Below are positions 58,018-60,009 of a stretch of DNA of 64,000 nucleotides, in pieces. The position numbers and the translations under genes are program-made. The stretch is from NCBI GenBank assembly GCA_012727435.1, contig JAAYHB010000021.1, positions 124,001 to 188,000 on the forward strand. The letters run 5' to 3'. Below the pieces are notes generated by a model, which saw only the letters and a list, made by a program, of their open reading frames with translations, ran no database searches and had not been told where the DNA came from. Source of the DNA: Clostridiales bacterium. Lineage in GTDB: Bacteria > Bacillota > Clostridia > Oscillospirales > CAG-272. Every line of letters starts with the position of its first letter. Position 1 is the stretch's first letter.

Positions 58018-58046
58018 TTGACAATAAATAAATGATGATATATAAT
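58018..58046 (+). promoter_or_regulatory. tRNA-Ala promoter
   Basis: Exact TTGACA-N17-TATAAT, 18 bases before the tRNA. Confidence 0.9.
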
Positions 58047-58063: not shown

Positions 58064-58139
58064 GGGCTTGTAGCTCAGTTGGGAGAGCGCCGCGTTCGCA
58101 ACGCGGAGGTCAAGGGTTCGAATCCCTCCAGGTCCACCA
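58064..58139 (+). tRNA. tRNA-Ala (anticodon CGC)
   Basis: Acceptor GGGCTTG/CAGGTCC with the G3-U70 pair that identifies alanine tRNA and an encoded ACCA. The anticodon stem-loop is CCGCG-TTCGCAA-CGCGG. 76 nt. The last 21 bases are repeated exactly at 58292-58312. Confidence 0.97.
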
Positions 58140-58312
58140 GAAAGCAAAGCAGGGCGAGGTTGTCCGACCGAGCCCTGCATTTTGCTTTCTGATTTGAAGG
58201 GATTCGAAAAGGGCGGCTGCAAAGCAACAGAAACATGCCGGGGGCATGTTTCGGCGCCCGAGGGCGTGGTAGGGAGCGGGAGCGACCGGAGCGAATCCCT
58301 CCAGGTCCACCA
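58119..58312 (+). repeat. Duplicated tRNA-Ala 3' end with structured spacer
   Basis: CGAATCCCTCCAGGTCCACC plus A occurs at 58119-58139 (inside tRNA-Ala) and at 58292-58312, 173 bases apart. The spacer holds a hairpin AGAAAGCAAA-GCAGGGC...GCCCTGC (58139-58190), a 10-bp hairpin GAAACATGCC-GGG-GGCATGTTTC (58230-58252), and AGGGATTCG (58198-58206), the exact complement of CGAATCCCT at the second copy. It looks like an attachment-site duplication or a small structured element. Confidence 0.75.
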
Positions 58313-58353
58313 AAAAGGCAGCAGATTTCTAACAAAATCTGCTGCCTTTTTTC
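58313..58353. terminator. Terminator after the duplicated tRNA-Ala end
   Basis: AAAAAGGCAGCAGATTT-CTAAC-AAAATCTGCTGCCTTTTTTC; T-runs on both strands, so it also ends serA. Confidence 0.85.
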
Positions 58354-58389
58354 TATGCCGAAAAGCCTTGCAACCATCTCTGCAATCTG

Positions 58390-59553
58390 TCAGTCAAAAC
58401 GGGTGACTCGGATGACGCCATCCAGCGCCCGAAGGCCGCTGATCAACGGTTCCAAAGCGTCGGAATCCAGATCAATCATCGTGTAGGCGTATACCCCTTT
58501 GGAGCGGTTGACCAGGTTGGCAATATTGATTTGCGCGTCAGAGATCAGATTGGTGATGGCACCTAACATACCGCGTTTGTTGTAGTGGCAAATGGTGATT
58601 CGGCACTCACCGGTCCGCGGCGACGTGACATCCGGGTAGTTGACCGAATTGGTGATGTTGCCGTTTTCCAGAAAATCGATAAGCTGATTTGCAGCCATGA
58701 CGGCGCAGTTTTCATCGGCTTCCGGGGTACCGGCGCCCAGGTGGGGAGTTGCCAGCACATTCTCCAAGGCAAGCTGTTCCTTGGTGGGGAAATCAGTCAG
58801 GTAATAACGAACCTTTCCGCTCTTCAGACCTTCCACAATGGCCTCGTTGTTGACGACGGGGCCCCTCGCGTAATTGATGATCGTGACACCGAGCTTCATC
58901 ATATCAATGGCGGCTTTGTCGATATAGTCGTACGTGTCCTCCTTCAGCGGGACATGCAAAGAGATATAATCGCAGTTTCTGTAAATCTCGGTGGGGTCAT
59001 TCACAAAGTTGACATAAGGCTTGATGTTCTCAATGGCTTGCTTGGAGAGGAAAGGATCGTATCCGTAAACATGCATCCCCAAATTGGTGCATGCCTTGGC
59101 CATCCTGGAACCAATTGCGCCCACGCCGATGATGCCGATGGACTTGCCCATAATCTCGGGGCCGCGGAATTTCACTTTGCCCTTTTCCACCGCCTTTCCG
59201 GAGTCCACCTCATTTCCGAGCGTCTTTACCCACGCAGAGGCCGCTATTACGTTTCGGGCCGCCATGATCATGACGCCGAGAACAAGTTCCTTCACGGCAT
59301 TTGCGTTTCCGCCGGGCGTGTTGAAAACCACGATGCCAAGCTCGCTGCATTTATCCACCGGAATCGTATTGACCCCGGCGCCCACCCGCACGATGGCTTT
59401 CAGGTTTTCGGGGATCTCAATATCGTGCAGGGGATGAGAATGAACCATAATCGCGTCATAGGAGAGGGCAGAGTCGCTGATCTCATATCGGCTTTTATCG
59501 AAGAGATCAAGGCCTATGGGCGATATGTTGTCATAAGTTCTGATTGTTTTCAT
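58390..59553 (-). CDS. serA: D-3-phosphoglycerate dehydrogenase
   Basis: First step of serine synthesis, oxidising 3-phosphoglycerate. It has the 2-hydroxyacid dehydrogenase fold: NTPGGNANAVKELVLG near residue 78, the NAD loop GIIGVGAIGSRMAKA near 141, an Arg in INYARGPVVNNEAIVEGL near 225, and the catalytic His in LATPHLGAGTPEADEN near 266. A C-terminal ACT domain (CRITICHYNKRGMLGAITNLI) suggests serine feedback. It is 387 aa. GGAGG lies in the T-box leader's 3' end. No serC is next to it. It is flanked by the duplicated tRNA-Ala end, so it may have arrived on an inserted segment. Confidence 0.95.
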   Translation of the reverse strand: MKTIRTYDNISPIGLDLFDKSRYEISDSALSYDAIMVHSHPLHDIEIPENLKAIVRVGAGVNTIPVDKCSELGIVVFNTPGGNANAVKELVLGVMIMAARNVIAASAWVKTLGNEVDSGKAVEKGKVKFRGPEIMGKSIGIIGVGAIGSRMAKACTNLGMHVYGYDPFLSKQAIENIKPYVNFVNDPTEIYRNCDYISLHVPLKEDTYDYIDKAAIDMMKLGVTIINYARGPVVNNEAIVEGLKSGKVRYYLTDFPTKEQLALENVLATPHLGAGTPEADENCAVMAANQLIDFLENGNITNSVNYPDVTSPRTGECRITICHYNKRGMLGAITNLISDAQINIANLVNRSKGVYAYTMIDLDSDALEPLISGLRALDGVIRVTRFD

Positions 59554-59574: not shown

Positions 59575-59815
59575 GTATATCAAACAAAAAAGCTTTCCAT
59601 CCCAACCACTGGGACGGAAAGCGTTGATTTCCGCGGTGCCACCCGGTTTGCCGAAGAGCAGACTTCGACCTCTCGAAGGCTGTAACGGCGCCACCGTCAC
59701 CGCTCGTCGCGGGCCGCTCCGGGGCGGAAAGCTCCCGCAGGTACCGGCTCACACCAGCCGCCGGCTCTCTTTGAACCTGTCCGGGAACATGTTCCCCTTC
59801 AATGCGTTTGCAAAA
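59575..59815 (-). promoter_or_regulatory. T-box leader controlling serA
   Basis: On the minus strand: a Stem I with AGAGAGCCGGCGGCTGGTG and GAGCCGGT, a conserved T-box GGGTGGCACCGCGG (59631-59644) and a terminator GCTTTCC-GTCCC...GGGAT-GGAAAGC with TTTTTT. Candidate specifier triplets in GGGAGCTTTCCG are AGC and TCC, both serine codons, which fits serA. Uncharged tRNA-Ser would favour read-through. Confidence 0.9.
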
Positions 59816-59854: not shown

Positions 59855-59971
59855 GTGGTTATTAAGTTCAAACAAAATATTTATGTAGGATTACAATACG
59901 GGAGTACCACTGGCATCAGGTTTTCATCATGATTGACAAAAAGCATCTCGCGGTTTATATCACCAGAAAGC

Positions 59972-60005
59972 AAAATCCCGCGCCGGGCACCCGGCGCGGG
60001 ATTTT
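59972..60005. terminator. Terminator after hsp20
   Basis: AAAATCCCGCGCCGGG and its complement CCCGGCGCGGGATTTT around CA; near-symmetric and placed six bases after the hsp20 stop. Confidence 0.75.
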
Positions 60006-60009
60006 GTGT

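Follow-up and report, generated by a model that had tools for sequence, protein, structure and literature searches.

The mark of genomic islands at tRNA genes is that the tRNA 3′ end, from the T-loop onward, is present as a direct repeat. The tyrosine-integrase islands and satellites found there target the T-loop, repeat the tRNA 3′ end on their far side and leave the tRNA intact. Ms6 is described as integrating at tRNA-Ala T-loops (PMC1762012). The RtT RNA, or 178-bp tyrT repeats, of Escherichia coli (RF00391) lies directly behind tRNA genes, often in tandem, and encloses small hairpins and tandem-GA-like pairs within a closing helix, in which an inverted arm pairs with a duplicate of the T-arm/acceptor 3′ half that terminates in CCA. 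For RtT, a tandem GA motif has been reported (PMC7657543); other papers describe the release of RtT RNAs from the transcripts of tRNA operons (PMC4986893) and their similarity to BIME repeats (PMC2965389). In E. coli K-12 we find that the RtT units at tyrT, lysT, and argVYZQ each end in the tail of their own tRNA; those at lysT (L184:1130-2309) and argVYZQ (L181) end in exact tRNA-Lys and tRNA-Arg 3′ ends and are absent as features from the RefSeq table examined. REP/BIME and MITE-type elements are short, non-coding, hairpin-rich, and dispersed, with direct repeats at insertion.

In the window, that is, the whole stretch of 64,000 nucleotides of a Clostridiales bacterium (genome G000) analyzed here, we consider it likely that positions 58140-58312, behind a tRNA-Ala gene, are a small non-coding insertion element from an uncatalogued, RtT-like family of tRNA-tail repeats. 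Like RtT, the element lies directly 3′ of a tRNA and has an outer helix with a tail copy ending in CCA, and its family shares with RtT the closing helix and the small hairpins with tandem-GA-like pairs. The cores, however, differ in sequence and structure, and the repeat starts at C56 (about 21 nt) in the Clostridial copy and at about position 59 (about 18 nt) in enteric RtT. RF00391 gave no match at E≤1 in the window between 55 and 64 kb and none over its cut-off in 147 order genomes or in 8 element-rich genomes (best 15 bits), with the E. coli control positive. As the RF00391 model does not match, the Clostridial family is a kind related to RtT and not a member of it; for the Clostridial family we show here that insertions are polymorphic and that elements match their targets at tmRNA and at many types of tRNA.

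As in the integrative elements that target tRNA genes, a T-loop is the target, the tail is repeated beside an intact tRNA, and empty sites are found for family members; unlike tyrosine-integrase islands, the element has no genes and no integrase, measures 100-200 bp, and carries an inverted anti-T arm, with arms matched to the target. With REP/BIME and MITE-type elements the family shares all the properties listed above, but it is restricted to tRNA/tmRNA 3′ ends and its terminal arms follow the target, and G000 holds a single copy of the element instead of many dispersed ones. The T-arm GTTCGAA departs at position 4 from the core site GTTRRRY of integron cassette attC, and no Rfam family matched 58140-58300 at E≤1, so the element has no counterpart there among group I/II introns or other catalogued RNAs.

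The tRNA-Ala locus of the window

The features of the locus are collected in Table 1. The initial annotation had noted that the last 21 bases of tRNA-Ala recur 173 bases downstream, and the repeat is indeed exact: the window contains two copies of the 21-mer CGAATCCCTCCAGGTCCACCA and no others, the bases flanking them differ, and when the 500 bases downstream were shuffled 2000 times the best match to the tRNA tail reached 11 nt. The strong hairpins and the 9-bp complement it had described in the spacer are equally borne out. The complement consists of AGGGATTCG at 58198-58206 with CGAATCCCT at 58292-58300, the first hairpin folds at -35.4 kcal/mol (z = -8.1), and fold z values are -3.5 for the element (58197-58304) and -8.6 from tRNA-Ala to the terminator.

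Table 1. Features of the tRNA-Ala and serA locus, in window positions
Feature	Position	Strand	Basis or remark
tRNA-Ala promoter, TTGACA-17-TATAAT	58018-58046	+	consensus matches 12/12
tRNA-Ala (CGC), intact, CCA encoded	58064-58139	+	ARAGORN; Rfam 63.5 bits
21-nt direct repeat, copy 1 (tRNA positions C56 to A76)	58119-58139	+	
Strong hairpin after tRNA-Ala, without U tract	58138-58191	+	orthologous hairpin in G001
5′ arm AGGGATTCG, inverted copy of T-arm 3′ half	58198-58206	+	
85-nt core: conserved hairpin and GGGCGTG...CGGAGCG motif	58207-58291	+	covariance model
10-bp hairpin with the family's CC-NGN-GG apex (GAAACATGCC GGG GGCATGTTTC)	58230-58252	+	fold
tRNA-Ala 3′ end, copy 2 (C56 to CCA)	58292-58312	+	exact match; CCA = 58310-58312
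17-bp hairpin and U tract	58312-58351	+	fold z -10
serA, 2-hydroxyacid dehydrogenase with ACT domain	58390-59553	opposite to tRNA-Ala	
T-box leader upstream of serA	59607-59811	-	87.5 bits; just below Rfam gathering score 93

The arm at 58198-58206 has two alternative partners, 58292-58300, with which it forms the closing helix P0, and the T-arm of tRNA-Ala itself at 58119-58127; the fold of the whole transcript has two mutually exclusive states. One joins a normal T-stem to a closed element (-140 kcal/mol), and the other (-149.5) places the anti-T arm on the tRNA's own T-arm while the second tail is paired by the tRNA 5′ half. From these two exclusive folds we conjecture that the second tRNA tail could serve as a spare. 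The promoter and hairpins would also be compatible with the release of an RtT-like RNA. The hairpin at 58312-58351 is terminator-like both ways, for the tRNA transcript and for serA. The window holds one unit, and tandem arrays of at least two are found in relatives such as L038, L060, L080, and L104.

The initial annotation had left open whether the spacer itself is a small structured mobile element or serA sits on an inserted segment, and our analysis favors the former and not the latter. Orthologues of serA (45-51% identity) are present in eight of the nine relatives searched, the ninth having a weak 32% match alone; in the two same-genus genomes serA and the tRNA-Ala locus lie on separate contigs, and the GC and GC3 of serA are like those of neighboring genes. 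A role for serA as cargo is rejected given the orthologues elsewhere in relatives and this ordinary composition, and by these comparisons serA is an ordinary resident gene. Its T-box is unrelated to the tail repeat, the sole tie of serA and the T-box to the element being the common terminator-like hairpin. Between the T-box and the hsp20 gene lies another strong hairpin (59961-60007, CAAAATCCCGCGCCGG...CCGGCGCGGGATTTTG), to which weak His/Leu leader matches are due.

A family of tail repeats in Clostridia

A gapped pattern in which 62-92 nt separate the arm from the T-arm copy gave 8 matches in 6 of 197 order genomes, and the reversed-pattern control gave none. A stricter pattern found 24 loci, mostly in Clostridia, in a collection of 84,980 species, and no match in viral contigs. 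Among the carriers are two cultured species, Lutispora thermophila and Lutispora saccharofermentans. One match, in Mycobacterium, has no tRNA nearby and looks like chance; another, in Patescibacteria (L041:4918-5074), is a unit behind tRNA-Arg(TCG) with the tail repeated, from which it appears that the tail-repeat layout may occur outside Bacillota. A covariance model (CM R1) built from 13 copies scores the window copy at 72.1 bits over 58196-58313 and matches at least 47 of 297 order, at least 24 of 292 class, and at least 7 of 250 phylum genomes, counts that are lower bounds because 12-14 candidates were scored per genome. As its training copies had GGGATTCG arms, the model favors paired copies.

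About 126 distinct copies were collected in Clostridia, and similar units do stand beside other tRNAs: 106 of the copies follow a tRNA or tmRNA gene on the same strand (Ser 59, Arg 10, Gln 7, Tyr 7, Leu 6, tmRNA 5, Lys 4, Ala 3, Val 2, and Thr, Glu, and Trp 1 each). The others are mostly at contig ends or are separated units. The tRNA or tmRNA lies mostly 40-55 nt upstream. Each unit consists of the T-arm in inverted copy, then a core of hairpins, then the 3′ end of its own tRNA in direct copy, and in most units this last part is a 20-26 nt exact copy of the end of the upstream gene. Five to eight copies per genome are present in G017, G045, and G781. At 15 other loci no Rfam family reached its gathering score on the elements, and the open literature searched yielded no account of tRNA-tail repeats from clostridia.

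Several loci carry further features. Units of the same type stand behind the tRNA-like 3′ end of the tmRNA genes in G105 (L158:1400-1800) and G045 (L078). In the array behind tRNA-Ser(GGA) of G228 (L080:695-4375), a type II restriction-modification pair, an N6/N4 methylase (PF01555) and a TdeIII-like endonuclease (PF09520), lies between units 3 and 4. Three units in G017 (L087, L035) stand apart from their tRNA or tmRNA and have a common upstream motif, ATCTTTTTCGTACCC, which probably marks where islands integrated at tRNA genes end. We considered and set aside cargo cassettes: the 3-kb inter-unit stretches in L080 and L108, like the orphan units in G017, are more probably insertions or islands that split the arrays at a later time.

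Arms, cores, and insertion sites

The 8-mer complementary to the T-arm of the upstream gene is present in 82 of the 106 copies, compared with a mean of 37 and a maximum of 48 in 2000 shuffles, and beside T-loops that depart from the consensus the matching 8-mer is found in 28 of 36 copies and the common 8-mer in none. In G105, the elements that follow tRNA-Ser(GGA) and tRNA-Ser(GCT) share one and the same core and differ solely by a compensatory pair of changes in the arms, C>T and G>A. Core identity between different tRNAs within one genome has a median of 0.83 (38 pairs), and that between the same tRNA across genomes is 0.52 (434 pairs); when genome labels were permuted, the observed mean core identity was reached in 0 of 2000 trials. 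Judged by this identity, cores spread within genomes. Compensatory changes are present in the stems of the family, and its hairpins contain 1523 Watson-Crick pairs, 12 G.U pairs, and 1 A.C pair. The excess of G.U over A.C, a small count among related copies, suggests that the tRNA-sense strand folds, and the nearly complete Watson-Crick pairing fits DNA hairpins as well as RNA.

Filled and empty sites can be compared among close relatives. The closed genome G781 has two insertions, one of 128 bp at tRNA-Leu(GAG) and one of 131 bp at tRNA-Ser(TGA), bordered by direct repeats of 23 and 25 bp that run from C56 to 2-4 nt past CCA, and in G758 and G824, of the same genus, both sites are uninterrupted and single-copy. 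The upstream flanks of G781 share 97-98% identity with those of G758 and about 95.5% with those of G824. Because the less related G824 is also empty, gain in G781 is the simpler history, and the two elements would more parsimoniously be read as gained, deletion between the 23-25 bp repeats being the possible alternative. The new arm at the Leu site contains a single mismatch, having GGGCCTTG in place of GGGACTTG. For the tRNA-Ser(GCT) copy of genus g74, the locus is missing from the draft genomes.

An empty tRNA-Ala site had been suggested as a check on mobility; for other family members empty sites are found, but a clean empty counterpart of the window site is not. The tRNA-Ala site of G001, the nearest relative, keeps the 5′ arm remnant GGGGATTCGGAAAGG and has lost the rest, so that G001 is ruled out as an empty site. 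Since G001 has the arm without the core, the copy in the window genus is older than the split and decayed in G001.

Origin of the element

The layout that recurs at many tRNAs and the empty and filled sites of close relatives support the reading of the spacer as a mobile element. Under the insertion reading that we prefer, the element would insert at C56, within the T-loop of a tRNA or tmRNA gene, without disrupting the gene. Behind the original 3′ end there follow a short trailer, the inverted T-arm 3′ half, a hairpin core of 65-140 nt, and a direct copy of the gene's own 3′ end from C56 to CCA. Given the perfect promoter and a first hairpin without a U tract, the window element is presumably co-transcribed with tRNA-Ala, and its RNA would fold into a structure that the T-arm copy closes, like RtT RNA in E. 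coli. No transposase or integrase was seen traveling with the element, and the moving enzyme would act in trans. Re-matching of the arms may occur during insertion or shortly afterward, whether through copying, through correction inside the hairpin, or through selection for pairing. Copying from a mature CCA-tailed tRNA is unlikely: where a tRNA gene encodes no CCA, its right copy has none either (Trp in L020; Ser in L023, L030, and L032).

A vertically inherited structural RNA repeat could produce much of the same picture, through local tandem duplication of the tRNA 3′ end and retention of the duplicate by selection for an RtT-like RNA that the transcript of the tRNA releases, with the likeness within genomes explained by gene conversion and the empty sites by deletion between repeats. 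The 12:1 ratio of G.U to A.C, the compensatory stem changes, the copies inside tRNA operons, and the perfect tRNA promoter in front all agree with it, as does the remnant of the arm in G001, evidence that a copy was lost through decay. We nevertheless consider it rather unlikely, given two exact filled/empty pairs whose topology favors gain in G781, near-identical cores behind different tRNAs, and patchy presence at different tRNAs across relatives. The initial annotation had taken invariance of position in distant relatives as a sign against mobility; both position and presence vary.

That the repeat is the attR remnant of an ordinary tyrosine-integrase island at tRNA-Ala, possibly with serA, is suggested by the direct repeat from the T-loop, the mark of such islands. 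This appears very improbable, as the insert is about 130-175 bp with a core conserved at many tRNAs, serA is resident, no integrase ORF lies in the 173-bp interval or among the ORFs of 52-64 kb, and the inverted anti-T arm is superfluous for islands. The T-arm is itself nearly palindromic, which could invite an explanation by chance or as a simple palindrome, but an exact 21-mer where shuffles gave at most 11 nt, a core conserved in dozens of genomes, and the empty reversed-pattern control make the probability of this negligible.

Beyond the insertion reading, it is possible, if somewhat doubtful, that these elements form a new class of minimal mobile element, with inverted and direct arms derived from the target, a closing helix re-matched at insertion, and enteric RtT as a second branch. 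RtT repeats have so far been regarded as a peculiar by-product of a small number of tRNA operons in enteric bacteria. The RtT layout is here widespread in Clostridia, at many tRNA types and tmRNA, with clean insertion polymorphism and arms matched to the host tRNA. Two questions therefore become directly testable, namely, how a gene-free element of ~130 bp with target-matched ends moves and whether tRNA maturation is influenced by a second tRNA tail on the transcript.
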